A stretch of DNA of 49,598 nucleotides from Acetobacteraceae bacterium (GTDB taxonomy: Bacteria; Pseudomonadota; Alphaproteobacteria; Acetobacterales; Acetobacteraceae): positions 1 to 49,598 of the forward strand of contig JAIYCD010000219.1 in NCBI GenBank assembly GCA_027488195.1, in the 5' to 3' direction. The notes under the pieces were generated by a model. The model ran no database searches and was not told where the DNA came from. It saw only the letters and a program-made list of their open reading frames with translations. Below are positions 18,701-30,922 of this stretch, piece by piece. Within the stretch, counting starts at the first letter, position 1; every line of letters starts with the position of its first letter. The translations under genes were made by a program, and so were the position numbers.

Positions 18701-20415
18701 TCACGCGCGACCTGGCGCGCCTGCCCGAGCCCTTCTTCGACCCGCGCCAGCTGCGCGAACCTCTGGTGCTGCCCTTCATCCTGCCCGAGGTCGTGAGCAA
18801 CGAGGCGCTGCGCGCGGCCGCCATCGTCTCCTCCTGGTTTGCCGTGCAGGCGGATTACCGGGGTTCGACCTTCCCGGTCGGCAACGTGATCCCGCCGCGC
18901 GGCAATGCGGTCTTGATCTCGGCCAGCCTCGATTCCATCCCGGGCCTGGTCATGCCCCGGCTGGAGGGGCCGACGCTGGCCATCGTGCCCAATCCGAACG
19001 ACCCGCTCGGCCTGCTGCTCGTCATTGCCGGGCGCAACGGGCAGGAAGCGGTGGCCGCGGCCACCGCGCTCGGCGTGGGGCGCGAGGCGCTGAGCGGCGA
19101 GCTGGTGACGATCCAGGCGCAGGAAATCCCGCCGCGCCAACCCTATGACGCGCCGCGCTGGGTGCGGGTGGACCGCCCGCTGCGCTTCGGCGAGATCATG
19201 GACCCCTCGGAACTTCAGGCCTTCGGCTATGTGCCCGGCCCCATCGCGGTGCCCTTTCGCACCGCGCCCGACCTCTACACCGCGCGGGACCGCGCCCTCT
19301 CCGCCCTGATCCGCTTCCGCGCGCCCCCGGGGCCGATCATGGACGTCTCCGTCTCCCGCGTGGATATCGCGCTCAATGACATCTACCTGCGTTCGGCCCC
19401 GCTGCGCTCGGCCGAGGCGACCTGGCCCTTCAACTGGATCCAACGGCAGATCGCGCAGAGCGAGACCGACGAGGTGCAGATCGGCCTGCCCGCCTACATG
19501 CTGTTCGGCCAGAACGAGCTGCAGCTGCGCTTCGACATGCGCCCCCTGCACCGCGGCGATTGTATCGCGGTGCCGGGCGACATCCGCGCCTCGGTGGACC
19601 CGGACAGCACGATCGACCTGAGCGGCGCCTATCGCTTCACAACATTGCCGAACCTGGCCTTCTTCACCTCTTCCGGTTTCCCCTTCACCCGCTACGCCGA
19701 TCTGTCGCAGACGGCGGTGGTGCTGCCCGAACGCCCCTCGCAGGTGGAGCTGGAATCCTTCCTGACCATTCTCGGCCGCGTCGCGGCGCTGGTGGGCTAT
19801 CCGCCGGTGAACATGATGGTGGTCCGGCCTGATGCGCTGCAAAGCGTGGCCGAGCGGGACCTGCTGGTGATCGGAACGCTGGGCCGCCAGCCCGCCCTGC
19901 AGACGCTGCTGCGCAACGCGCCGCTGCAGATGGAGGGCAACCGCCTCACGGTCCGGCTCAATGACGCGCTGGGCGATTTCCGCAACCTGTTCGGCGGCGA
20001 GCGGCGCGGCGAGATCGAACGCGTCTCGGCGCTGCTGGCCAATCCGGGCGAGGCGATGGGGGCCCTGATCGGCTTCGAGAGCCCGCTGCGCTCCGGCCGT
20101 TCCGTCGTGGCGCTGACCGGCTCCACCGCGGCCGGGCTCGAGGCGATGGTGACCGCGCTGCGCGACCCCGAACAGGTGCCGCGCGTACAGGGCGACACGG
20201 CGATCCTGAGCGGCGGCCGCATTCAGGCCTTCCGCGTCGGCTCGACCTACACGAACGGCGTCCTGCCGCCCTGGCTCTGGCCGGAATACCTGATGAAGGA
20301 CAATCCCTATGTCCTGCTGGGGATGTTCGTCCTGGTCCTGCTGCTGATCCCGGGCCCGATCTACTGGGCCCTGCGTCGCCGTGCCGCCCAGCGCCTGCGT
20401 GAGCGGTCGGTCTGA
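15796..20415 (+). CDS. bcsAB: Fused cellulose synthase catalytic and regulatory subunits (BcsA-BcsB)
   Basis: One uninterrupted 1539-residue ORF encodes both inner-membrane synthase subunits. The BcsA half has N-terminal transmembrane helices, then a GT2 domain with DDG (183-185), DCD (231-233), TED (326-328) and QRMRW (364-368). The gating loop FNVTDKG lies at 488-494. The c-di-GMP-binding PilZ domain has RSRAR (569-573) and DLSLGG (596-601). A linker follows with a signal-anchor-like helix (about 745-763, ending in AWAQ) and a proline-rich PPxLS stretch (to about 815). The BcsB half then follows, with its carbohydrate-binding/flavodoxin-like periplasmic domains and a C-terminal membrane anchor (about 1500-1525). 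A single-chain AcsAB is known from some Komagataeibacter strains. It makes beta-1,4-glucan from UDP-glucose under c-di-GMP control. Confidence 0.95.
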   Translation: MSEIAARKEWLARLPLMRNKWFGFFITTLGALLSLTIITVPMSAEQQVVFALGCLFLFLVFNRIAGRTITLLLIVLSLLVSLRYIFWRLTETLDFSSFLQTFLGVGLLMAEVYAIIALVLAYFQTLWPLDRKPAPLPANTDEWPAVDVFIPSYNEPLDVVRPTVFAALALDWPSDRLNVYLLDDGRREDFRRFAEEVGCHYIIRPDNKGAKAGNINHALAQTSSEYVVVFDCDHVATRGFLQLSLGWMLRDQGLGMVQTPHYFYSPDPFERNLAAGQRVPNEGLLFYGLIQQGNDFWGATFFCGSCAVIRRTALESVGGVPTQTVTEDCHCSLKMQKKGWRTAYLRVPLAAGLATERLMLHIGQRMRWGRGMIQILRTENPLFASGLSLAQRLCYFNAMFHFLFPLPRFVFLTAPLAFLIFGESIIAASPLAIVAYAGPHIVLSVTTASRIQKTVRHSFWSEIYETVLTVYLLPVTLSTLLDPKRGRFNVTDKGGTLEEGYFDLRAVGPNMILAGALLLGLLLGIYGLAANAPQTLEFQAFALNVIWGTFCLIAVLAGLAVGRERRQVRSRARVSAEVEAAVLLADGRRVEGLSEDLSLGGAALRMPAPENWGDDNLVMVELDAGSQRVTVPAEVLRWEGDRLNLRFLPQDLQDEGSIVIATLCRADAWVDWDSIREDRPLRSLKEVLVSIGGLFAGGSQFSLRKRPAAGRSIQVPDMGDVAPAKAAEATALDAAKPAATARPAVPAAIALVILLMPGLAWAQGRGPQPPTLSPPTLSPPPLSAPPALSSAPGLAPAPVLPPILGAPGLAAPRDAQAGGLIMATSGQEAPGTRTETRTLRQLGLRGPMQMRGVSDLQGLLFGVRGDEVVTSARLTLQGATSPALIPELSQIAFTLNEQFIGTVQPDRARPAFGPLEFPINPFFFADVNRLNFRFTGRYAIECNDPLSGLLWSTISDNSTISLRLERLPITRDLARLPEPFFDPRQLREPLVLPFILPEVVSNEALRAAAIVSSWFAVQADYRGSTFPVGNVIPPRGNAVLISASLDSIPGLVMPRLEGPTLAIVPNPNDPLGLLLVIAGRNGQEAVAAATALGVGREALSGELVTIQAQEIPPRQPYDAPRWVRVDRPLRFGEIMDPSELQAFGYVPGPIAVPFRTAPDLYTARDRALSALIRFRAPPGPIMDVSVSRVDIALNDIYLRSAPLRSAEATWPFNWIQRQIAQSETDEVQIGLPAYMLFGQNELQLRFDMRPLHRGDCIAVPGDIRASVDPDSTIDLSGAYRFTTLPNLAFFTSSGFPFTRYADLSQTAVVLPERPSQVELESFLTILGRVAALVGYPPVNMMVVRPDALQSVAERDLLVIGTLGRQPALQTLLRNAPLQMEGNRLTVRLNDALGDFRNLFGGERRGEIERVSALLANPGEAMGALIGFESPLRSGRSVVALTGSTAAGLEAMVTALRDPEQVPRVQGDTAILSGGRIQAFRVGSTYTNGVLPPWLWPEYLMKDNPYVLLGMFVLVLLLIPGPIYWALRRRAAQRLRERSV

Positions 20416-21467
20416 TGCGACGCCGAGACATGCTGAAGCCAACGGGGGCTGACACGATGCCTGAGGCCAATTCCCTGAAGATCACCCGCCGTGCCGGTCT
20501 CGCCGGCGCGCTCGCCGCCCCCCTGGTCACCCCCCTGGCCTCGCCGTGGCGGACCGCCCAGGCGCAGCAAACCAGCCTGGTCGAGATCGGCACCGATGGC
20601 TGGCTGTTTCCCGTCTGGGACCGTCTGGTGCGGGTGGACATGGCCGCCCTGCGCAACGCGCTGCAGACCGTGGTGGAGACCATCGGCATCCTGCGCGCCG
20701 CGCGCATCCAGGTCGCGATCTGTCTGATTCCGTCACGCAAGCGGATGATGCGGCAGTTCCTGCCCGCCGGTTCCCAGGTCTCGCCTGAGGCGGCGCAGCG
20801 CTACACCATGACCGTTGCGGAATGCGCCCGCGCCGGCGCCGTCGTGCCCGACCTCGATGCCCTGTTCCGCGCGCAGATGCAGCGCGACCCGGCGCACCTG
20901 CTGTTCTTCAAGACCGACACGCACTGGACGCCGATGGGCGCCGAGGCCGCGGCGGTCGAGATGGCGCGCGCGATGCGTGCGCAGATGCAGTTGCCACCCA
21001 GCTCGCGCCCTGGCACCCGCCTGGGTGACCTCCGGCCGATGCAGCTGGCCGCCGGCGACCTCACGCAGCACCTGACGCCCGCCCAGCGCGCCGCCTACGG
21101 GCCTGAGCAGTCGCTGATCCGGCAGATCCTCCCGCCCGAGGGCGCCGCGGCCCTGATCGAGGATGACAGCTTCGACACGATGCTGATCGGCACCAGCAAC
21201 GTGCAGCCACGCTTCGGCTTCCAGCCGGTGCTCTCCAACCAGCTGGTTCGCCCGGTCGGCCTCTCCTGGAAGCCGAACAATGTCGGCACCTATTTCACCC
21301 TGCTGGAATACCTGCGCAGTGACGGCTTCCGGCAGCAGCGCCCGCGCGCCATCGTCTGGAACCACCTCGAGCAGGACATGGTGAACACGCCGAACAACCC
21401 GGCCTGGGGCAGCGCCGCGATGGCGCCCGCCGAGTTCCTCAACCAGGTGCGGCGGGCCGTGGCATGA
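20415..21467 (+). CDS. AlgX/AlgJ-like O-acetyltransferase of the cellulose operon (WssF/WssI-like)
   Basis: A 350-residue periplasmic SGNH-type protein. After a twin-arginine-like signal (ITRRAGLAGALAAP..., ending near residue 50) comes the DGWLFPVWD segment typical of AlgX/AlgJ. The catalytic pair D168-T-H170 lies in KTDTHWTPMGAEA and the nucleophile candidate S261 in LIGTSN, matching the D/H/S set of AlgX. Family members move acetyl groups onto alginate or, in Wss systems, onto cellulose. Its ATG overlaps the bcsAB stop by one base; an in-frame ATG at 20457 with ACGGGGG upstream is an alternative start. It overlaps the AlgF-like gene by 4 bp. Confidence 0.82.
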   Translation: MRRRDMLKPTGADTMPEANSLKITRRAGLAGALAAPLVTPLASPWRTAQAQQTSLVEIGTDGWLFPVWDRLVRVDMAALRNALQTVVETIGILRAARIQVAICLIPSRKRMMRQFLPAGSQVSPEAAQRYTMTVAECARAGAVVPDLDALFRAQMQRDPAHLLFFKTDTHWTPMGAEAAAVEMARAMRAQMQLPPSSRPGTRLGDLRPMQLAAGDLTQHLTPAQRAAYGPEQSLIRQILPPEGAAALIEDDSFDTMLIGTSNVQPRFGFQPVLSNQLVRPVGLSWKPNNVGTYFTLLEYLRSDGFRQQRPRAIVWNHLEQDMVNTPNNPAWGSAAMAPAEFLNQVRRAVA

Positions 21468-22153
21468 GGCGTTTGCTCCTGGCGCTGGCGGCGGGCTTCG
21501 CGGCGAGCTTTGCGACGGCTGGCGCCGCCTGGGCGCAGGGCCAGGTCTATGATCCGGTGCCGCCCCGCGGCTCCGCCTATCTGCGCCTGGTGAACGTGCT
21601 GCCGGGCGAGGTGACCGCGCGGCCCGACTTCCTGCCGCAGCAGCGCCTGGGCGTCGCGCCCGCGCAGCGCGTCATGGCCTTCACCGCGATCGAGAATGTC
21701 GCCAACCGGCAGCTCCGCCTCGAATTCCAGGAAGGCCAGCGCCGCGGTCAGGCGAGCTTCCGCATCGAGCCCGGCAGTTTCGTCACCGTCCTCCTGCACG
21801 CGACGGCGGAGGGCGGCCTGGCCGCCACGCCGATCGTCGACTCGCCGGATTTCAACCGCGCCCGCGCCCGTCTCGCCTTCTACAATGCGATGCCCGATTG
21901 CCCGGCCGGCGGCGTCTCGATCCAGCCCTCCGGCCCCGCCGTCTTCGAGGCTGTGCCGAGCCTCGCCACCCGCGCGCGCAGCGTGAACCCCGTCTCGGCC
22001 GAGCTGCGCGCCCTGTGCGGCGAGCGTGGCAGCGCGCCCTTCGCCCTGGAAGGGCTGGAGGCGGGCGGCATGTACAGCATCTGGCTGATCAGCGGCACGC
22101 CGCAGCCCCAGGCCTTCCTGACGCGCGACACCACGGCGATCTGGCGGCCGTGA
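21464..22153 (+). CDS. AlgF-like periplasmic acetylation protein (WssG-like)
   Basis: A 229-residue secreted protein. A signal peptide (about 1-25, ending in AAWAQ) is followed by YDPVPPRGSAYLRLVNVLPG, the start typical of AlgF. The remainder is predicted to be beta-rich, with two cysteines (in DCPAGG and LCGER) that could pair. AlgF is an accessory protein for polysaccharide O-acetylation, and its homologue WssG belongs to the cellulose acetylation set of Pseudomonas fluorescens. Overlap with the AlgX-like gene (ATGA) and the 13 bp gap to bcsC make it part of the operon. Confidence 0.75.
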   Translation: MRRLLLALAAGFAASFATAGAAWAQGQVYDPVPPRGSAYLRLVNVLPGEVTARPDFLPQQRLGVAPAQRVMAFTAIENVANRQLRLEFQEGQRRGQASFRIEPGSFVTVLLHATAEGGLAATPIVDSPDFNRARARLAFYNAMPDCPAGGVSIQPSGPAVFEAVPSLATRARSVNPVSAELRALCGERGSAPFALEGLEAGGMYSIWLISGTPQPQAFLTRDTTAIWRP

Positions 22154-22166
22154 TGGGGCGAGCGGC

Positions 22167-25100
22167 ATGCTGATCCGCCGAGACCGCGCCAGGCGCCGCG
22201 CCTTCGGGCGCGAGGCCGCAGGGCTTGCGGCGGGGCTCGTCCTGGCCATGCCAGCCGCGGCGCAGCCGCCGCCCATCCTCTCGCCGCCCCCGCCCGTGCT
22301 CTCCGGCCCGCCCGCTCTCTCTCCCCCGCCTGCGCTTTCGGGGCCGCCCGCGCTTTCGGCCCCCCCCGCGCTTTCTGAGCAAGGCGCCGCATCGGCGATG
22401 GGCGGCGACGCGCGTGCAAGCGGCGGCTCACCCTCCGCCAACCTGCTGGAGCAGGCCGCCTTCTGGCAGCAGCAGGGCCAAAGCGAGCGCGCATTGCAGA
22501 CGCTGGACCGGCTTCTCGTCGTCGAGCCCAACAACATCGAGGCGCTGGCCGGCGCTATCGAACTGGCCTCGCTCAGCGGCCAGCCGGAGGTCGCGCGGCG
22601 CTACATCATCCGGCTGCGGCGGCTGGCGCCCGGCGATCCCCGCCTGGCGCGCGGCGAAGAATTGCTGCGCGTGACGGGTGAGGAGGGCGAATCGCTCGCC
22701 GCCGCCCGGCAGCTCGGGCGCGCCGGACGCACCGAGGAGGCGCTGGCCCGCTACAGGGCGCTGTTCCGCAACGGCCGCATCCCGCCCGCCCTCGCCCCGG
22801 AGTATTTCCAGGTGCTGGCCGCCTCCTCCGAGGCCGGCTACCGGCAGGCGGTGCAGGATGTCGGCCAGATGGTCGCGGCCCAGCCCGGCAACGCGCAGCT
22901 GGCGCTCACCTACGCCCAGCTGCTCACCTATCGGGAGGAAACCCGCTCCGACGGCGTGGACCGGCTTGCGGAGCTCTACAATCAGCGCGCCGTGCGCGAA
23001 TCCGCCCGCGTCGCCTGGCGCCAGGCGCTGCTCTGGCTGGGCGACGAGCCGGAAACCGCGGCCCGCATCCGCGCCTATCTCGCCGTCAACCCCAACGACC
23101 GGGAGTTGGAGCAGAAGATCCGCTCCTCCGAGGTGGTGATCGCGCCCGGCGCCTCGGCCCGCATCTTCGGCTGGGGGGCGATAGACGCCCGCCGCTTCAC
23201 GGAGGCCGAGCAGCAGTTCAACGCAGCGCTGGCGATCGACCCGCAAGACACGGAGGCCATCCTCGGCTTCGCCGTGCTGCGGAAGATCCAGAACCGGATG
23301 ACCGAGGCGCGGAACCTGCTGGACCGCGCCATCGCGCTCTCACCGGACCGCGAGGATGAGTTCCGCCGCGCCGTCGGCGACCTCAATCCCTGGAACACGG
23401 GCGGGGGACGCGGCGGCGGCTCGGTCGGTCCCAGCGTGCTCGCCTGGCGCGCGCTGGAGCGTGGCGACCTCGACCGTGCCGATGCCCTGGCCCGCCGTGG
23501 CCTGAACGCCCGCGGGCAGGAGCGGCTGGACAGCGAGTTGCTGCTCGGCCAGATCGCGCTGCGCCGCCGCGACAACGTCGCCGCCGAGCAGCGCTTCCGC
23601 AACGCGCTGACGCTGCGCCCGCGCCAGACCGATGCGATGAACGGCCTGTACCTCGCGCTCATCGGGCAGGATCGCATTGCGGAGGCCGAGGCCTTCCAGC
23701 GTGAGATGGGCCTGCCCCCCAACCGGGACGCCCTGGCGGCCCGCGCCTTCAGCCTGCGGGACCGCGCGGCCCTGACCGACAACCCCGAGCAGGCGGTGGC
23801 GCTGCTGCGCCAGGCGCTGGCCATGGCGCCGGGCAGCACCTGGATCATGCTCGACGCCATCCGCAAGCTGCGCAGCCTGGGCCAGACCGCCGAGGCGGCC
23901 GAACTCCAGGCGCGGCTGGAGCGCGACACCAGCGCCGAAGGCTCCACCGCGGCCGCCCTGGCGGCGTTGGACGAGGAGCGCTTCGGCGCCGTGGTCGCCC
24001 TGCTGGAGCGCATCCCCGTGCGCGTCCGCAACGCCGACATGAACCGGCTGCTGACGGCAAGCCGACGCGAATTCGAGATCCGGCAACTTGAACTCCAGGT
24101 GCGCGAAGGGCGCGCTGGTGCCATGGAGGCCCTGATGGCGGGCGCTGGCCGGCGTGACCCGGCCTTCACCGTGGGGCCCGCCACGGTGCGCGCCTTCGCC
24201 CGGCTGAACGACCCGGTGCGCGCCGGCCTCGCCGCGCGCGCCGCGCTGGCCGCCAACCCCAACACCAGCGCCGCCGACCGCATCGCCCTGGCCTCGGCCC
24301 TGGTCGATGCGAACCGGCTGGAGGATGCCAGCGCGCTCGCCGCCCCCTTGCTTGCGGACCGCAACCTGCCGGCCGAGACGCGGCGCGAACTCGCCGCCGT
24401 CATGGAATCGGGCGCGGCCCAGCAATCCGACGCCCTGGCGCTGCGCCGCGCGCCGGAGCAGGCCTACCAGGTGCTCGCGCCCGCACTCGCCGCCTCGCCC
24501 GCCAGCGTGCCGCTGAACATGGCGCTGGTCCGCCTCTATGTCGCAACCAACCGCACGGCCGAGGCGCGCATCCTGGTGGACGCCGTGCTGGAGCGGGACC
24601 CGCGCAACCTGACCGCGCGCCTCGCCAAGATGGACCTGGCGATCGCCGAGGGCCGGCTGCGCGAGGCCGATGCCCTCATCACCGAGACCGCCTTCCTCCA
24701 TCCGGGCGAACTCCAGGTGACGCTGGCCGAAGCGCGGCTGGCCCGCGCGCGGGGCCAGTTCGGCCGCAGCCTGCGCCTGATGGAGACGGCCGGCGCGCGC
24801 CGGCTCGAGCATCTGCGCAACAGCGGACAATTGGCCGAGGAGCGGCTGGCGCAGATCGCCCTCAATCCGCAGCGCGGCGGCCCCGGCCCCGCGCAGCTGC
24901 ATGACCCGCTGACGGCGCAGATCGCCCAGGACCTGATCCGCGCCCGCGACGAGGCCGCGACCTGGGTGCAGGCGGGCGCCTATCTCGGCTATCGCGCCGG
25001 CGATGCCGGCACCTCGCGCCTCACCAACCTGACCGTGCCGACCGAGGTCAGCACCCGCATGCCGGGCAATATGCCCGGGCGCATCGTCATGGGCGTGGAT

Positions 25101-26189
25101 GCGGTGGCGCTGAATGCCGGCCGGATGACCTCCGAGTCCAGCAATGCGCGCTTCTTCGCCGAGAATCCGCTCAACTTCACCGGCAGCTACCGCGTCGGTC
25201 CCGAGACGGCCGAGGGCGCGGCGCTCCGGGCCGCCTATCTCGGCCGGAACTTCCGCGCCGATATCGGCTCGACGCCCATCGGCTTCGCGCGCACCAACAT
25301 CGTGGGCGGGGCCGAGGTGGTGCCGCGCATCAATGAACAGCTCCGCATGCGCCTGACCATCGAGCGCCGGGCGGTGACGGACAGCATGCTCTCCTATGCC
25401 GGCATGCCGGATTCGGTGGTGGGCGCCCGCTGGGGCGGCGTGGTCCGCACCGGGGGCCGCATCCAGTTCGAATGGGCGCCCTCCGCGCGCTTTGGCGCCT
25501 ATGCCGGCGCCGGCTACGGCACCTATCGCGGCAACAACGTCCAGAACAACAACCGGGTCGAGGGCGGGATCGGCGCGTATTACGCCCTTCTGCGCGAGCA
25601 GAACCAGCAATTCACCATGGGCGTGGACCTGCGCTACATCGGCTTCGACAGGAACCTGAGCGGCTTTACCTTTGGCCAGGGCGGGTATTTCAGCCCGCAG
25701 CAGAACGTCATCGCCTCGCTCCAGGCGGAATACATCGCCCGCTGGGGCGACTGGTCACTGCGGGGCATCGGCTCGGTCGGCTACCAGAACTTCCGCACCT
25801 CCTCCACGCCGGTGTTCCCGACCAATGCCGCATTGCAATCCCAGCTTGCGACGATCGCGAGCTTCGATCCCACCACCGGGGCGGTGAACCCCGCGACCCG
25901 CAGCAGCGGCCTCACCGGCTCGATCTTCGGCAACGTCGAATACGCGGCGACGCCGAATATCCGCCTGGGTCTCGCCGGCCGCTTCGAGAAGGTGGGCGAC
26001 TACCAGGACACGGTGGGCCTGTTCTATCTGCGCTGGCGCCTGGACCGCCCGCGCGAGGATCTGATGCCGCTTTATGCCGGCGCGAATACGCCGACGCCGA
26101 ACGTGAACGATCCATTGCAGTCGAGCTTCGGCTCCGGCCGGCCCGAATGGGTGGGCCTACCCTCGGGTGCGTCGCGCCCGACATGGTGA
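22167..26189 (+). CDS. bcsC: Cellulose export outer-membrane protein BcsC
   Basis: A 1340-residue protein. A basic signal peptide (ending in AMPAAAQ near residue 33) precedes a proline-rich segment of PPALS-type repeats (about 34-75). A long superhelix of TPR units follows to about residue 900; for example, NLLEQAAFWQQQGQSERAL starts the first. The C-terminal BcsC porin domain (about 910-1340) has alternating amphipathic strands and ends in DTVGLFYLRWRLD followed by a short tail. It guides cellulose through the periplasm and outer membrane. Length is within the usual BcsC range. The proline-rich start resembles the BcsA-BcsB linker. Confidence 0.95.
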   Translation: MLIRRDRARRRAFGREAAGLAAGLVLAMPAAAQPPPILSPPPPVLSGPPALSPPPALSGPPALSAPPALSEQGAASAMGGDARASGGSPSANLLEQAAFWQQQGQSERALQTLDRLLVVEPNNIEALAGAIELASLSGQPEVARRYIIRLRRLAPGDPRLARGEELLRVTGEEGESLAAARQLGRAGRTEEALARYRALFRNGRIPPALAPEYFQVLAASSEAGYRQAVQDVGQMVAAQPGNAQLALTYAQLLTYREETRSDGVDRLAELYNQRAVRESARVAWRQALLWLGDEPETAARIRAYLAVNPNDRELEQKIRSSEVVIAPGASARIFGWGAIDARRFTEAEQQFNAALAIDPQDTEAILGFAVLRKIQNRMTEARNLLDRAIALSPDREDEFRRAVGDLNPWNTGGGRGGGSVGPSVLAWRALERGDLDRADALARRGLNARGQERLDSELLLGQIALRRRDNVAAEQRFRNALTLRPRQTDAMNGLYLALIGQDRIAEAEAFQREMGLPPNRDALAARAFSLRDRAALTDNPEQAVALLRQALAMAPGSTWIMLDAIRKLRSLGQTAEAAELQARLERDTSAEGSTAAALAALDEERFGAVVALLERIPVRVRNADMNRLLTASRREFEIRQLELQVREGRAGAMEALMAGAGRRDPAFTVGPATVRAFARLNDPVRAGLAARAALAANPNTSAADRIALASALVDANRLEDASALAAPLLADRNLPAETRRELAAVMESGAAQQSDALALRRAPEQAYQVLAPALAASPASVPLNMALVRLYVATNRTAEARILVDAVLERDPRNLTARLAKMDLAIAEGRLREADALITETAFLHPGELQVTLAEARLARARGQFGRSLRLMETAGARRLEHLRNSGQLAEERLAQIALNPQRGGPGPAQLHDPLTAQIAQDLIRARDEAATWVQAGAYLGYRAGDAGTSRLTNLTVPTEVSTRMPGNMPGRIVMGVDAVALNAGRMTSESSNARFFAENPLNFTGSYRVGPETAEGAALRAAYLGRNFRADIGSTPIGFARTNIVGGAEVVPRINEQLRMRLTIERRAVTDSMLSYAGMPDSVVGARWGGVVRTGGRIQFEWAPSARFGAYAGAGYGTYRGNNVQNNNRVEGGIGAYYALLREQNQQFTMGVDLRYIGFDRNLSGFTFGQGGYFSPQQNVIASLQAEYIARWGDWSLRGIGSVGYQNFRTSSTPVFPTNAALQSQLATIASFDPTTGAVNPATRSSGLTGSIFGNVEYAATPNIRLGLAGRFEKVGDYQDTVGLFYLRWRLDRPREDLMPLYAGANTPTPNVNDPLQSSFGSGRPEWVGLPSGASRPTW

Positions 26190-26944
26190 GGGCTCTGCGT
26201 ATCGCCCGGGGCTCCCTCATCCTGGCGTGCCTCCTGCTCCTCGCGGGCGGGCTGCCCGCCTGGGCCAACTGCCCGGCACCCCCAGCCGGCCAGCCCCTGC
26301 CGCGCGAAGCCCGGCCGGAGCCCATCGACTGGGTGCCCTGGCGGGGGGCCGTGGACACGCTGACCGCGCGGCTGCGCGCCACCGACGTCTCCCGCACCCG
26401 CCTGGTGTTCATCGGCGATTCGATCACCCAGTTCTGGGAGGAGCATATCTTCCGGAACTTCTACGCCCATCGCGCGCCGCTCAACCTCGGCATCGGCGGA
26501 GATGTGACGCAGAGCCTGCTGTGGCGGCTGGAGAACGGGCATTGGCCCGCGCAGCTGAAGCCAGAAGCCATCGTGCTGCTGATCGGCACCAACAACATCG
26601 GCAGCGGGGCCCAGCCCCAGGCCGTGGCCTATGGCATCACGCGCATCGTCGAGCGCCTCCAGCAGCTGGCGCCGCAGGCCCGCATCGTGCTGGTCGGCAT
26701 CCTGCCGCGCGGCATCTACGCCAATGACCGCATGCGCCGGCCCATCGCCGAGGTGAACCGCCTGATCGCCGCCTGCGGCGATGGCCGCCGCGTCTTCTAC
26801 TCGGAGCCGGGGCAGCTGATGCTGGATGGCCAGGGCGTGCTGTATGACTGGATCGCGCCGGACTGGATCCACCTCTCGCTGACCGGCTACGCGATCCTCT
26901 CCACCGCCATCGAGGGCCATCTGCGCCTGGCGCTGCAGCGGTAG
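26183..26944 (+). CDS. SGNH/GDSL hydrolase of the cellulose operon (BcsX-like position)
   Basis: A 253-residue secreted hydrolase with a signal peptide (about 1-28) and all SGNH blocks: F-I-G-D-S80, G105 in GIGGD, N137 in GTNN, and D227-W-I-H230. The fold is shared with platelet-activating-factor acetylhydrolase-type and carbohydrate esterases. Placed directly after bcsC with a 7 bp overlap, it could remove acetyl groups from cellulose, as proposed for BcsX in Komagataeibacter second operons. ATG 26183 is used; GTG 26186 one codon later is equally possible. The substrate is inferred from context only. Confidence 0.82.
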   Translation: MVRALRIARGSLILACLLLLAGGLPAWANCPAPPAGQPLPREARPEPIDWVPWRGAVDTLTARLRATDVSRTRLVFIGDSITQFWEEHIFRNFYAHRAPLNLGIGGDVTQSLLWRLENGHWPAQLKPEAIVLLIGTNNIGSGAQPQAVAYGITRIVERLQQLAPQARIVLVGILPRGIYANDRMRRPIAEVNRLIAACGDGRRVFYSEPGQLMLDGQGVLYDWIAPDWIHLSLTGYAILSTAIEGHLRLALQR

Positions 26945-26949
26945 GGCGG

Positions 26950-26966
26950 CCCGCCCGTCAGGCGGG
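26950..26966. terminator. Hairpin between the convergent SGNH hydrolase and JmjC genes
   Basis: A perfect stem CCCGCC-CGTCA-GGCGGG (6 bp stem, 5 nt loop) lies across the 13 bp gap and the end of the minus-strand gene. It closes the bcs operon. There is no T-run, so it is a possible bidirectional terminator rather than a textbook intrinsic one. Confidence 0.45.
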
Positions 26967-28097
26967 TTCGAGCAGTCCCATGCCCCAGAGCTTGCGCGCG
27001 AAGACCGCATCGCCGGGCACCGCGCCCTCGGCGAGGGCGGCCAGCTCGGCCGCCTCACCAGCATCGAGCGGCAGGGCACCGCCGGTCCAGAACAGCGTGG
27101 CCGAGCCGTCCTGCGCCTGCACCAGATGCGAATGCATGCCCTCGGTCAGGCGGAGCGCGCCCTCCGGCATGGGGGCGAAGAGGCCGCGCGCGGGCAAGGG
27201 CTGCCGGTCCCGTGCCAGTTGTTCCAGCATCAGGTTCGCCAGTCGCTCGGCATGGGCGGGGGTGGCGAGGCGAGAGAGGCGCAGGGCGAGCCCGGGCAGG
27301 AGGTCGGCCTCGCCGAAGCGCCAGCTGGGCAGGCTTTCGCGCAGGACGGGATCGGCCAGCTCCGCCTCATCCAGCAGGGCGCGGATCGCCTGCGCCCAGG
27401 AGGCTTCCATGAAGCCGATGGTGGCATGCAGCGAGCGTTCGCCCGGCTCGGTCGCGGCGTCATGCATGATGCCGCGCGGGATGTAGAGCGCGTCGCCCGG
27501 CTCCAGCACCAGCACATGCGGCTCGCCCAGCGGCGCCATATGGCCGGGCCAGGGGGTGCGGCGGGTGGGGCGCTCGACGCGCTCCCCATCCCAGACGCGC
27601 CAGCGCTTGCGGCCCTCCACCTGGAGCACCAGCACGTCATGCGTGTCGAAATGGGTGCGGAAGCCCTGGGCCGCGGGCGGCGTCAGATAGATGTTGGACT
27701 GGACCGGGTGCAGGAAGAGGCGCTCCAGCCCGCGGCAGAAATCCGCGAGCGGCGGATGCGTCTCATGAAATTGCGAGACGACGAGCGAGGCGCCCGCATC
27801 GAAGCGGGTGAGCAGCCGGGGCAGATCCACCCGGCCGTCAGGCAGGGTGAATTCCTCCTCCGGCACGCCGGCGCTGCCGTTGCGCGCCTCATCCGCCATG
27901 GCGATGCGTGGCGTGCGGGCGCCATCGGTGCGCAGATGCGCGTCGAGGTCGGCCACGCTGAGCAGATCGGCGAAGCGGCCGGGGCTCGAGCCCTTGAAGT
28001 GGCGCCACGCCAGACCTTCGCGCAGGGCGAGTGCCTCGTCCACGCTCATGCCTTCAAAGGCGAGGGCGAAGGCCGCCTCGGTCAATCCTTGCTGCAT
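26958..28097 (-). CDS. JmjC/cupin-4 Fe(II)/2-oxoglutarate oxygenase (RoxA-like)
   Basis: A 379-residue protein. The JmjC core holds the iron ligands H149-F-D151 in RTHFDTHDVLVLQ and H212 in PRGIMHDA, followed by a C-terminal helical/winged region. GRKRWRVWD just after the first ligands resembles E. coli RoxA (YcfD), which hydroxylates an arginine of ribosomal protein L16. It could therefore be a ribosomal oxygenase. However, it sits 34 bp downstream of, and co-directional with, two genes for repeat proteins rich in Gly-Arg-Gly. Hydroxylation of those proteins is an alternative I regard as open. Both readings are inference; the oxygenase fold itself is clear. Confidence 0.85.
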   Translation of the reverse strand: MQQGLTEAAFALAFEGMSVDEALALREGLAWRHFKGSSPGRFADLLSVADLDAHLRTDGARTPRIAMADEARNGSAGVPEEEFTLPDGRVDLPRLLTRFDAGASLVVSQFHETHPPLADFCRGLERLFLHPVQSNIYLTPPAAQGFRTHFDTHDVLVLQVEGRKRWRVWDGERVERPTRRTPWPGHMAPLGEPHVLVLEPGDALYIPRGIMHDAATEPGERSLHATIGFMEASWAQAIRALLDEAELADPVLRESLPSWRFGEADLLPGLALRLSRLATPAHAERLANLMLEQLARDRQPLPARGLFAPMPEGALRLTEGMHSHLVQAQDGSATLFWTGGALPLDAGEAAELAALAEGAVPGDAVFARKLWGMGLLEPA

Positions 28098-28131
28098 GGA
28101 TCCTGCCGGCCCTGATGCGTTGCCGCGCTGC

Positions 28132-28581
28132 CTACCAGCGGCCCTGGCCGGGTGCGTCGCGCGGATCGGAATCGGTGCGGCCGGTGCGGCCATAGCCACC
28201 GCGCCCACGGCCTGGACCATCGCTCGGGTCGCGGTCGGTAATGCCCGTGCCGCCGGTGTTGCGGTAGCCGCCGCGGCCATTGCCAGGCCCGTCGCTCGGG
28301 TCGCGATCGGTGATGCCGGTGCCGCGCCGTCCGCCGCGGCCATTGCCCGGACCGTCAGTCGGGTCGGCGTCCGTGATGCCGGTGCCGCGGCGCCCGCCGC
28401 GGCCATTGCCGGGGCCGTCGCTCGGGTCGGCATCGGTGATGCCGGTGCCGCGCACGACGACCGGCGCCGGGCTGCCGTAATAGGACGGCCCTGGGGCGAC
28501 GCAGCCGGCCAGGGCTGTTCCTGTTCCGCCCAGGGCGGCGAGACGCAGAACGAGCAAACGACGTGTGAGGCGGTTTTCCAT
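28132..28581 (-). CDS. Repeat lipoprotein A, TDxDPSDGPGxGRGG repeats
   Basis: A 149-residue protein of no family I recognise. The N-terminus has a signal peptide with lipobox ALAGC (Cys27), so it is predicted to be a lipoprotein. From residue 45 it consists of five repeats of about 21 residues, each carrying D-x-D-P-[ST/R]-D-[GA]-P-G-x-G-R. The first three begin with GTGITD, and the last is degenerate and ends in GRW. Synonymous codons differ between repeats (Gly as GGC, GGG, GGA, GGT), showing selection on the protein. The Asp spacing could bind calcium or another cation. A GAGGAA ribosome site precedes the ATG. The JmjC oxygenase gene follows after 34 bp. Confidence 0.72.
   Translation of the reverse strand: MENRLTRRLLVLRLAALGGTGTALAGCVAPGPSYYGSPAPVVVRGTGITDADPSDGPGNGRGGRRGTGITDADPTDGPGNGRGGRRGTGITDRDPSDGPGNGRGGYRNTGGTGITDRDPSDGPGRGRGGYGRTGRTDSDPRDAPGQGRW
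28135..28449 (-). repeat. 63-bp-period coding repeat in lipoprotein A
   Basis: Tandem units of about 63-72 bp encode the TDxDPSDGPG repeats. The first three units are closest to each other, and the last two carry small in-frame insertions or changes. Units diverge mostly at third codon positions. Confidence 0.85.
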
Positions 28582-28709
28582 CTGGTTTCCTCGCTTCGTA
28601 TTCCGGTATCAGAACTGTGACAGAGTGCACAGGCTGGGCCGGGAGCACAACGGTTCTCAAGGCATCGGCCGGCCGCGCGCCGCGCGCCCGGCTGTCTCAG
28701 CCCGACTTG
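28582..28709 (-). other. Gap between repeat proteins B and A
   Basis: This 128 bp gap has no ORF worth calling. It is long enough for a separate promoter for gene A. Apart from the GAGGAA ribosome site just before the gene A ATG, I see no clear element, so co-transcription of B with A is not assured. Confidence 0.35.
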
Positions 28710-29066
28710 TCAGCGGCGGCCGCGGCCAGGGCCGTCGGACGGGTCGCTGTCGGTGCGCCCCGAGCGGCCACGGCCGGGGCCGTCGGTCGGGTCGCGGTCG
28801 GTGTAGCCGGTGGAGGAGCCGGTGCCGCGGCCGCGCCCCGCGCCATCGCTCGGGTCGCGGTCGGTCGCGTTGGTGCGATATTGCCCGCCGCCCGACCCAC
28901 GGCCGCGGCCGGGCCCGTCGCTCGGATCTGCGTCGGTGACGCTGCGCTGGGCGGCCGCCTCGCCGGGGATGGCGGCAGCAGCGGCGATCAGGCCTGCTCC
29001 GCCGGCCGCACGCGCCACGATCAGGCGGCGGCTCAGCCGCGGGTCCTTCGGTTCTTGGTCGGACAT
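28710..29066 (-). CDS. Repeat protein B, paralogue with TDxDPSDGPGRGRG repeats
   Basis: A 118-residue paralogue of repeat lipoprotein A. It starts with a twin-arginine-like signal (SRRLIVARAAGGAG...) ending near residue 40 in EAAAQ, without a lipobox cysteine. The mature part is essentially four repeats, TDADPSDGPGRGRG, TDRDPSDGAGRGRG, TDRDPTDGPGRGRS and TDSDPSDGPGRGRR, separated by Gly/Ser/Thr spacers of varying length. A GAGGAAG site lies at proper distance upstream of the ATG. It is divergent from sapC. The function is unknown; candidates are a cation-binding or cell-surface matrix protein, or a substrate for the downstream JmjC enzyme. Confidence 0.7.
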   Translation of the reverse strand: MSDQEPKDPRLSRRLIVARAAGGAGLIAAAAAIPGEAAAQRSVTDADPSDGPGRGRGSGGGQYRTNATDRDPSDGAGRGRGTGSSTGYTDRDPTDGPGRGRSGRTDSDPSDGPGRGRR

Positions 29067-29097
29067 GGACTTCCTCGATATCTGTTATGTGGTTGGC

Positions 29098-29118
29098 TGG
29101 CGCCTTTCTCGGGCGCCA
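29098..29118. promoter_or_regulatory. Inverted repeat TGGCGCC-N7-GGCGCCA
   Basis: A perfect 7-bp inverted repeat lies in the divergent region between repeat protein B and sapC. It could be an operator or an mRNA hairpin. A TATGCT hexamer sits 10 bp downstream (29129-29134), but no good -35 box accompanies it. Confidence 0.4.
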
Positions 29119-29180
29119 AATCTTGGGCTATGCTCTTTCACCAGAACAAGGCCTGCGTCAGAAATTAGACGGACCTATCC

Positions 29181-29198
29181 GACGTTTAATGAAACGTC
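29181..29198. promoter_or_regulatory. Palindrome GACGTTT-AATG-AAACGTC
   Basis: A perfect 7-bp inverted repeat with a 4-nt spacer lies 43 bp before the sapC ATG, in the shared upstream region of sapC and repeat protein B. Its symmetry and A/T-rich core in a 70% GC genome suggest a dimeric regulator site; the regulator is unknown. Confidence 0.5.
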
Positions 29199-29241
29199 CC
29201 GCTGCGCCGCCGCCTTGGAACGTCTCGCCGGAGTGAACGCC

Positions 29242-29958
29242 ATGAATGTGCCAAGCCTCCCCGTCCTCTACACGGCCTTGGAGCCGCTTGACGCCGAACG
29301 GCATGCGGGGCTGCACCTGCGCGATGTGGGGCATGGCTTTGCCGCGCACCTTTCCTCCATCCCGCTGGCGGTCGAGGAATTCGCCCTGGCCGGCCGCCAC
29401 ATGCCGGTGGTCTTCGCCGACCAGGCGCCGCACATGCCCGTGGCGCTGACCGGCCTCTCACCCGACCGCAACCTCTTTGTGGATGAGCAGGGCGCCTGGC
29501 GCCGGGGCACCTATGTGCCCGCCTATCTGCGCCGGTATCCCTTCCTCCTGGTCCGCGCCGCCGCCGATTCCGACCAGCTCATCCTCTGCATCGACCCCGA
29601 GGCGCCCCAATTCGCCGCCTCCGCGGGCGAGCCGATCTTCGACGCCGAGCGCAAGCCGGCGCCGCTCGCCACCAAGGCGCTCGAATTCACCCGCTCGGTC
29701 GAGGCCGCCTTCCGCAAGACACAGGAATTCGCCGAGGGGCTCTCGCTGATGGGCCTGCTGCAACCTGCGGCCACGCAATTCGAATGGGACGGCAAGCCCT
29801 TCCGCGTGGACGGTTTTTTCGCGGTAGACCGTGAGCGGCTCTCAAAGCTGACCGGCGAGCAGCTGGCAACCCTGCGGGACAAGGGCTGGCTTGATGCCAT
29901 CTACGCCCATCTGCTCTCGCTGGGCGGCATTCCCGAACTCAAGCAGATGCAGGGCTGA
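29242..29958 (+). CDS. SapC family protein
   Basis: A 238-residue protein of the SapC family (PF07277), recognisable from the blocks YTALEPLDAERHAGL, FALAGRHMPVVFA, NLFVDEQGAWRRGTYVPAYLRRYPF and the C-terminal GFFAVDRERLSKL. SapC was named from a Campylobacter S-layer locus, but its biochemical role is not established. There is no signal peptide. GGAG upstream supports ATG 29242. tctC follows after 4 bp, so they are probably co-transcribed. Confidence 0.85.
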   Translation: MNVPSLPVLYTALEPLDAERHAGLHLRDVGHGFAAHLSSIPLAVEEFALAGRHMPVVFADQAPHMPVALTGLSPDRNLFVDEQGAWRRGTYVPAYLRRYPFLLVRAAADSDQLILCIDPEAPQFAASAGEPIFDAERKPAPLATKALEFTRSVEAAFRKTQEFAEGLSLMGLLQPAATQFEWDGKPFRVDGFFAVDRERLSKLTGEQLATLRDKGWLDAIYAHLLSLGGIPELKQMQG

Positions 29959-29962
29959 ATTC

Positions 29963-30922
29963 ATGCAGCGCAGAACCCTCTTGGCGAGCGCGGCCCTGCT
30001 GCCGACGCTTGCAGATCCGGCCCAGGCCCAGGCGCGCTTCGCCAATATCAGCATGTTCATCCCCGCCGGCCCCGGCGGCGGCTGGGACGGCCTCGGCCGC
30101 GCCATCGAGCAGGTGGCCCGTCCGGCCGGCCTCGTCGGCAATTTCCAGTTCGAGAATGTGGGCGGCGCGGGCGGCATCGTGGGCCTGCCGCGCTTCGTTT
30201 CGCAGCGGCGCGGCCGGCCGGATGCGCTGATGGTCGCGGGCTCGGTCATGGTGGGCGCGGTGCTGACCAACCGCTCGCCGCTGGGCCTTGCCAATGTCAC
30301 GCCGGTGGCGCGGATGACGCAGGAGGTGGGCGTCGTCGTCGTGCCCGCATCGTCTGAGATCCGGGACATCGCGGGGCTGCTGGCGGCCTTCCGCGCCAAT
30401 CCGGGCGGCACCTCGGTGGGCGGCGGCAGTGCGGGCGGGACGGACCACATTACGCTCGGCCTGATCCTGAAGGCGCTGGGCCGCAATGCGCGCGAGGGCA
30501 GCTACGTCGCCTTCGCCGGTGGCGGGCCGGCCCAGGCGGCGATCCTGGGCGCGCAGGTCCGCGCCGGCATCTCGGGCTATTCCGAGTTCGCCGAGCAGAT
30601 CCGCGCGGGCCGGATGCGGGCGCTGGCCACCACCGGCGAGACGCGCTCGGACCCCGCCATCCCGACGTTGCGGGAGTCCGGCGTGGATGTGGTGACGGCC
30701 AATTGGCGCGGCGTCTTCGGCGCGCCCGGCATCAACCCGACGCAGCGCGCGGCCCTCGTGACCCTGATGACCGAGCTGAACGCGCTGCCCGCCTGGCGCG
30801 AGCTGCTCACGACGCGCGGCTGGGACAATGCCTTCCTGCCCGGTGCGGAGTTCGACCGCTTCCTGGCCGCCGACATCGCGGCGACCGAGACGGTGCTGAA
30901 GGAGCTTGGCCTGGCGGGCTAA
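29963..30922 (+). CDS. tctC: Tripartite tricarboxylate transporter substrate-binding protein (TctC/Bug)
   Basis: A 319-residue periplasmic binding protein. A signal peptide (about 1-24, ending in PAQAQA) is followed by the Bug-family ligand loops, seen as IPAGPGGGWDGLGRAI and the later GGGSAGGTDHITL. TctC delivers carboxylated substrates to the TctA/TctB membrane pair. Those genes (tctB, tctA) lie 1.8 kb further on the same strand, separated by an old yellow enzyme and an opposing methyltransferase. The longer spacing in the GGGWDG loop fits a tricarboxylate-type TctC better than the Bug protein at 43463. Confidence 0.9.
   Translation: MQRRTLLASAALLPTLADPAQAQARFANISMFIPAGPGGGWDGLGRAIEQVARPAGLVGNFQFENVGGAGGIVGLPRFVSQRRGRPDALMVAGSVMVGAVLTNRSPLGLANVTPVARMTQEVGVVVVPASSEIRDIAGLLAAFRANPGGTSVGGGSAGGTDHITLGLILKALGRNAREGSYVAFAGGGPAQAAILGAQVRAGISGYSEFAEQIRAGRMRALATTGETRSDPAIPTLRESGVDVVTANWRGVFGAPGINPTQRAALVTLMTELNALPAWRELLTTRGWDNAFLPGAEFDRFLAADIAATETVLKELGLAG

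Follow-up and report, generated by a model that had tools for sequence, protein, structure and literature searches.

The JmjC oxygenase gene examined here and the genes for Tat-type repeat proteins that accompany it were found to form a recurrent pair, and the best explanation is an oxygenase-repeat pairing in which the modification takes place before export, whichever residue is hit (probability roughly 0.75). The pairing itself is strongly supported by comparative genomics. It shows a shared pathway rather than a substrate; that the repeats are what the enzyme acts on we consider highly probable. Aspartate has about an even chance of being the modified residue, and we prefer it to arginine because it is the invariant residue of the unit. 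The original prediction is partly supported: its idea of repeat substrates with a dedicated modifier agrees with distribution and adjacency, and its chemistry is what we infer below. The window, the whole stretch of DNA that was analysed, covers 49,598 nucleotides of an Acetobacteraceae genome, and the features of the locus are given in Table 1.

Table 1. Features of the repeat-oxygenase locus in the window, with signal regions as predicted
Feature	Position	Strand	Remarks
Repeat protein A	28710-29066	-	118 aa; twin-arginine R13 R14 and 4 units
Tat-type signal region of A, aa 1-40	28947-29066	-	
Repeat array of A, aa 43-118	28713-28940	-	
Repeat protein B	28132-28581	-	149 aa; twin-arginine R7 R8, lipobox LAGC (C27), 5 units
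Tat and lipoprotein signal region of B, aa 1-27	28501-28581	-	
Repeat array of B, aa 49-149	28135-28437	-	also detected by TRF
JmjC_2 Fe(II)/2-oxoglutarate oxygenase	26958-28097	-	379 aa, ATG at 28097; ROX-like fold; H149, D151, H212

On the minus strand the genes run in the order A, B and JmjC gene, with 34 bp (28098-28131) between the last two, which confirmed the predicted arrangement of two repeat paralogues followed on the same strand by an intact JmjC gene. When the A and B repeats were compared with the repeat ORFs of close relatives (6 comparisons), 40-59 differing codons were synonymous and 11-29 non-synonymous, and third codon positions were the most divergent. Since the differences are mainly synonymous, the repeats of A and B are selected protein-coding sequence, and the codon-position pattern of changes ruled out the opposite-strand ORFs as real genes. 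A scan of the locus for promoters and terminators found none. The genome, which is 88% complete, yielded two JmjC_2 genes, namely the locus enzyme and a paralogue (P0005, contig C291) with 31% identity to it over 195 residues, so the locus enzyme is not its sole JmjC_2 gene, which speaks against an objection that the original prediction had anticipated, namely that the oxygenase would be the only RoxA orthologue. A third repeat protein, on contig C87 and unlinked to the locus, has six units and a signal of the type seen in A and B; the genome has a single TatC gene.

Repeat profile A1 and the enzyme served as queries against one set of 200 genomes of the family, and enzyme matches at E of at most 1e-40 were counted as orthologues. 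Repeats were present in 29 of the 200 genomes and enzyme orthologues in 27, all of them among those 29 (Fisher test, 2e-31, uncorrected for kinship). According to the match coordinates, repeat and enzyme shared contig and strand with the repeat upstream in 26 of the 27; the gap was -57 to 187 bp in 25 genomes and 1061 bp in one (G168), and in the remaining genome (G005) the repeat lay on another contig. The two repeat genomes without the enzyme were G177, which is 78% complete and has one repeat array running off a contig end, and G106, where the 318 bases after one repeat gene contain no enzyme; a broader search with profile A5 recovered no enzyme from G177 and only a 165-bit paralogue from G106. 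As a control, weaker JmjC_2 matches, considered to be paralogues, lay within about 1 kb of a repeat in 2 of 42 cases, both from genus g95, in which the paralogue adjoins the repeat-enzyme system. One intermediate enzyme (E 3e-31; 238 bits with A5), from a genome with no detected repeats (G091), was counted neither as an orthologue nor as a paralogue. Several genomes encode linked as well as unlinked repeat proteins, and thus one enzyme probably serves many substrates.

A second set, which overlaps this family draw, came from a pattern scan through 84,980 species genomes; of the 381 relatives that it confirmed, the best 80, and hence only the closest ones, were kept. These came from Roseococcus, Rubritepida, Rhodovarius, several Roseomonas-type genera, Belnapia, Humitalea, Caldovatus, Phreatobacter/Hyphomicrobiales and genome bins. 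An upstream ORF on the same strand with at least 2 units was found at 72 of these 80 best loci (71 at -6 to 232 bp, one at 1067 bp), and all 8 remaining genomes had repeats elsewhere in the genome. In a draw of 385 genomes from the class, scores with profile A5 were bimodal, with 13 enzyme matches in 12 genomes at 351 bits or more and the next match at 187 bits. All 11 repeat genomes of this draw, representing six families, carried a high-scoring enzyme with a repeat gene adjoining; this count omits matches at E about 3e-4 in G200 and G282 and includes G214, found by A1 only. Two separate repeat-enzyme pairs were present in G523, the repeats followed the enzyme rather than preceding it in G428 and G214, and an enzyme without a detected repeat was seen in G399, where the contig ends about 30 bases past the enzyme. 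A quick tree of 24 system-labelled rows, including that of G399, and 23 others needed two label changes, and only the long-branched enzyme of G091 (PAR_L255) grouped with the system rows.

Among 398 genomes drawn from the phylum, whose class make-up is not given, seven had repeats at E up to 1e-6, and all seven were Alphaproteobacteria. Three of them, from family f23 and with weak repeat matches, encode short two-unit Tat proteins, and all three have the enzyme at 412-420 bits. The enzyme is adjacent and divergent in G871 and at one G746 locus, the repeats of G771 lie more than 1 Mb from the enzyme, and the other G746 locus has no enzyme nearby. A plasmid search gave 144 records with JmjC homologues, all below 80% coverage of the query, and no match to the repeat protein of L209. 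Repeats adjoin this JmjC gene in most genomes examined, as the original prediction had suggested checking. The case that was to speak against the pairing, repeats occurring widely without the oxygenase, was encountered only marginally, in 2 of 29 repeat genomes of the family and 0 of 11 of the class.

The repeat unit can be written as [T/S/N]-D-x-D-(2 or 5)-D-x-x-G-x-G-R, and two unit classes were distinguished among 957 units, with a linker of 2 in 807 and a linker of 5 in 143. Conservation was counted over units that are not independent within one protein, after 3 of 183 repeat ORFs contained in longer ones had been removed (180 left), and it looked alike before this removal. With only Pro and G.GR fixed, which left 773 units with 300 distinct strings, the three Asp were kept in 773, 773 and 772 of them and the preceding T/S/N in 772. 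With the Asp triad fixed, the two Gly positions were kept in 931 and 942 of 943 units. The repeats of 8 repeat proteins had no match above the curated cut-offs of Pfam and NCBIfam (Pfam only for L236), and matches below the cut-off among the repeat proteins were to Suprabasin, Tal-1A_2A and formate_TAT. B had no match to PDB sequences even at E 10. Its AlphaFold2 model (pLDDT 43.3) showed no structure beyond the signal helix, and the repeat chain is predicted to be disordered.

Export signals were studied in 176 usable N-termini, the other 7 of 183 distinct repeat ORFs having been set aside for N-termini cut by a contig end. A twin arginine preceded the first unit in 176 of 176, and RRx-phi-phi was present in 175, compared with 15% in shuffles; a lipobox-like motif was seen in 51, and the lipobox C27 of B was invariant in 13 rows. 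A classical SRRSFLR-type motif occurs in some other families, and the signal of the L197 protein passes the cut-off of the NCBIfam model TAT_signal_seq (TIGR01409). When 18 repeat proteins were scanned at E up to 0.1, 6 matched formate_TAT and 3 matched TAT_signal_seq. A matches formate_TAT below the cut-off only, and because B has no NCBIfam match its Tat assignment rests on the motif. From motif and hydrophobic stretch, A and B are putative Tat-type proteins for which TatC-dependent export is predicted; the Tat-like signal originally noticed on B does include a twin arginine, but it is not particular to B, as A has one too. In addition, the G346 repeat protein (on L236) ends in a PG_binding_1 domain above the Pfam cut-off (1.7e-18), with no enzyme found within its 8.5 kb stretch, and this peptidoglycan-binding tail points to the cell envelope.

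The enzyme matches Pfam JmjC_2 (PF08007) at E=2.1e-26, with 92.4 bits against a cut-off of 22. Its predicted metal triad is present, and H149, D151 and H212 were invariant in all three family alignments, A2 (25 rows, without L053 and L071), A5 (16 rows) and A6 (44 rows, without L166, whose stretch contains a stop). Foldseek, run with an AlphaFold2 model of pLDDT 92.1, ranked NO66 first, ahead of MINA53, with Rhodothermus and E. coli YcfD after these. The top NO66 rows had TMq 0.70-0.74 over about 430-460 columns, with an rmsd of 5.2-6.1, that is, above 5 A. By sequence the enzyme matched NO66 at 1e-25 and YcfD at 4e-9. The earlier label "RoxA-like" was dropped, as the nearest solved relatives are NO66 and MINA53 and not RoxA/YcfD; we class the enzyme as a JmjC_2/ROX-type protein and not as RoxA.

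In the alignment with NO66, whose numbering was anchored on the two residues concerned, Tyr328 pairs with Y137 and Ser421 with G228, and the Ser-to-Gly change is also found in the paralogue P0005. Both residues of NO66 are named in the passages of PMC9994133 drawn on here, in which the target His is gripped by Ser421 (NO66) or Ser257 (MINA53), and in a simulation Asn was too short for Ser421 and bonded to Tyr only. A pocket with the Tyr but without the Ser would therefore suit a short target residue such as Asp. In YcfD, going by the relevant passages of PMC5862942, the Arg is gripped by D118 and S208, with M120 close by. Because D118 and M120 of YcfD are spaced like Asn and Tyr328 of NO66, N135 probably takes the place of D118, an equivalence that comes from residue spacing and not from a residue-level alignment with YcfD. 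Both Arg-gripping residues thus appear to be absent here, with G228 assigned by the NO66 alignment and N135 by spacing.

These residues bear on a somewhat unlikely reading that keeps the same enzyme-substrate pair, and so overlaps with the best explanation, but places the modification on the Arg of G-x-G-R, giving beta-hydroxy-Arg in the manner of RoxA. In its favour, 901 of the 943 units with the Asp triad have the Arg, and Arg hydroxylation is described, in the portions of PMC5862942 used here, for the ROX-family YcfD and also for the more distant JMJD5. However, Arg is the least conserved core position of the unit, and the L230 array, which is paired with its own JmjC gene, consists of two full units without any Arg. 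The apparent replacement of D118 and S208 (PMC5862942, in part) by N135 and G228 also argues against it. Together with the closer relationship to NO66 and MINA53, this leaves the RoxA-like arginine chemistry of the original prediction unsupported. As to other residues, Pro was rejected as target because long-linker units mostly have S, T or G behind the second Asp, which means that Pro is not shared by all units; modification at a Gly or at the T/S/N position is considered unlikely.

It is improbable, but still to be weighed, that the enzyme works in the same pathway on a target other than the unit, for example a third protein or the conserved signal region. The surroundings of the twin arginine are indeed conserved as well, and genomic linkage leaves the modified atom unnamed. 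On the other hand, the unit is nearly invariant over 180 ORFs, which implies that it is itself under selection, and the enzyme clade co-varies with unit type. Loci with clade I enzymes (30 loci, 8 in the tree and the others placed by similarity) had 177 short units and 0 long ones, while those of clade II (14 loci, all in the tree) had 46 short and 66 long units.

A RiPP pathway, in which multi-core repeat precursors would be cut after export into small hydroxylated peptides, is very improbable. The substrates are multi-unit, and the JmjC/cupin-like ornithine hydroxylases BpmG/BipG and PbsQ act on RiPP precursors, according to the sections of PMC12257519 and PMC12707348 cited here. However, the candidate substrates carry Tat and often lipoprotein signals, lengths of up to about 330 aa occur (L198), and one has a peptidoglycan-binding domain. 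Among the neighbour clusters present in at least 8 of 80 loci, read by eye, no peptidase, maturation gene or other system partner stood out. With these signals and a chain predicted to be disordered, the suggested likeness to RiPP precursors found no support. ORFs resembling TctC, a tricarboxylate uptake transporter, were identified by eye near 33 of the 80 loci, and the window has a TctC gene of its own; we take this neighbour as local synteny. Finally, that the oxygenase is an ordinary ribosomal RoxA and a neighbour by chance, as the original prediction allowed, has next to no probability, for despite the shared ROX fold and Pfam JmjC_2 domain it is contradicted by the genome distribution (27 of 27 co-occurring, 26 of 27 adjacent, the paralogue unlinked at 2 of 42) and by the seemingly changed Arg-gripping residues.

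Returning to the pairing with modification before export, the cytoplasmic JmjC oxygenase would take A, B and the unlinked C87 repeat protein as substrates. Since iron and 2-oxoglutarate are cytoplasmic, hydroxylation is expected to precede Tat export; the disordered repeat chain would be hydroxylated in the cytoplasm and then exported by Tat. B would receive its lipid after export, as would some other repeat proteins, and A would be released. In the most likely chemistry, one of the invariant Asp in each unit would be converted into beta-hydroxy-Asp within the D-x-D-(2/5)-D pattern, which could bind metal, although the D-x-D-D pattern makes metal binding no more than a guess. In its complete form, one ROX-type JmjC would put beta-hydroxyaspartate in every unit of all the Tat-exported disordered repeat proteins, whether linked to its gene or unlinked, and give an oxygen-dependent metal-binding surface or extracellular material, and this we offer as a tentative proposal. 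A role for the product as metal-binding or matrix material at the cell surface is the more doubtful part.

Eukaryotes have supplied the best-known JmjC protein hydroxylases, and to our knowledge few bacterial targets are known, namely uL16 and some RiPP peptides. The genome evidence ties a bacterial JmjC clade to a defined, repetitive and probably easily expressed candidate substrate. If the proposal is true, it would add an oxygen-dependent modification of exported proteins, suggest why disordered repeat proteins bear Tat signals (modify first, export later), and provide a function for a repeat-protein family without a family name and for its enzyme. Among the literature matches listed, there was no description of the repeats or of a ROX-type JmjC with Tat-exported repeat proteins.

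Among solved relatives, the human ribosomal histidyl hydroxylases NO66 and MINA53 come closest to the enzyme, both in sequence and, along most of the chain, in fold. They differ in that the Ser holding the target His, as given in the cited passages of PMC9994133, aligns with the invariant G228 here, and the locus enzyme, unlike them, is bacterial and linked to exported repeat proteins. YcfD/RoxA, the arginyl hydroxylase of uL16 Arg81, has the ROX-type JmjC domain and metal triad in common with it but is more distant in sequence, and its D118 and S208 seem, partly by inference, to be absent here. BpmG/BipG and PbsQ are likewise bacterial JmjC/cupin-like enzymes encoded with their own substrate, which sets a precedent for a bacterial JmjC accompanied by the gene of its substrate; they differ in belonging to a small-peptide pathway with an MNIO, an arginase and a radical SAM enzyme, and the sections of PMC12257519 and PMC12707348 cited here do not mention Tat-exported repeat proteins for biphenomycin-type pathways. 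We file the system as a new variety of protein hydroxylation rather than a RiPP. In its proposed working only, it resembles AspH and the EGF-like domains, where an oxygenase hydroxylates repeated units before the protein leaves the cell. The hydroxylation of collagen by prolyl hydroxylase is analogous in the same way, repeated units being modified before export. Both differ from the locus in enzyme, compartment and substrates, and the repeat proteins described here, if modified as proposed, would be a bacterial counterpart of hydroxylated matrix proteins.

Two separate enzyme-repeat pairs were found in a single genome, G523 (fetched stretches L230 and L231), and arginine was absent from the repeat units of one of them (L230). 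In the search of family genomes, the enzyme match at G088:C1:1560490-1561639 was broken across two frames, with a repeat gene alongside. The second JmjC_2 enzyme adjoined a repeat-enzyme pair only in genus g95, in 2 of 42 paralogue hits.

The system in the window adjoins an exopolysaccharide neighbourhood at 20415-26944. The window's SapC-family and TctC genes are divergently oriented relative to the repeat genes. Among the loci of the best 80 of 381 relatives, 33 had TctC-like ORFs, identified by eye, close to the system.

One repeat protein, in the 8.5 kb stretch L236, had no enzyme gene nearby within that fetched stretch. Its peptidoglycan-binding domain, located at the C-terminal end, hints that this protein is located at the cell wall.

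Features of the window and of fetched stretches (L-numbers)
Feature	Source	Positions	Strand	Remark
AlgX-like protein, protein lacking any Pfam match, BcsC-like protein for cellulose export, GDSL hydrolase	window	20415-26944	+	
SapC-family gene (PF07277)	window	28810-29958	+	SapC domain starts at residue 160
TctC receptor gene (PF03401)	window	29891-30922	+	
Repeat protein with C-terminal peptidoglycan-binding domain	L236	4358-5197	-	PF01471, E 1.7e-18
Second JmjC_2 paralogue, g95	L059	8968-10191	-	adjoins repeat-enzyme pair
Second JmjC_2 paralogue, g95	L067	5092-6318	+	adjoins repeat-enzyme pair
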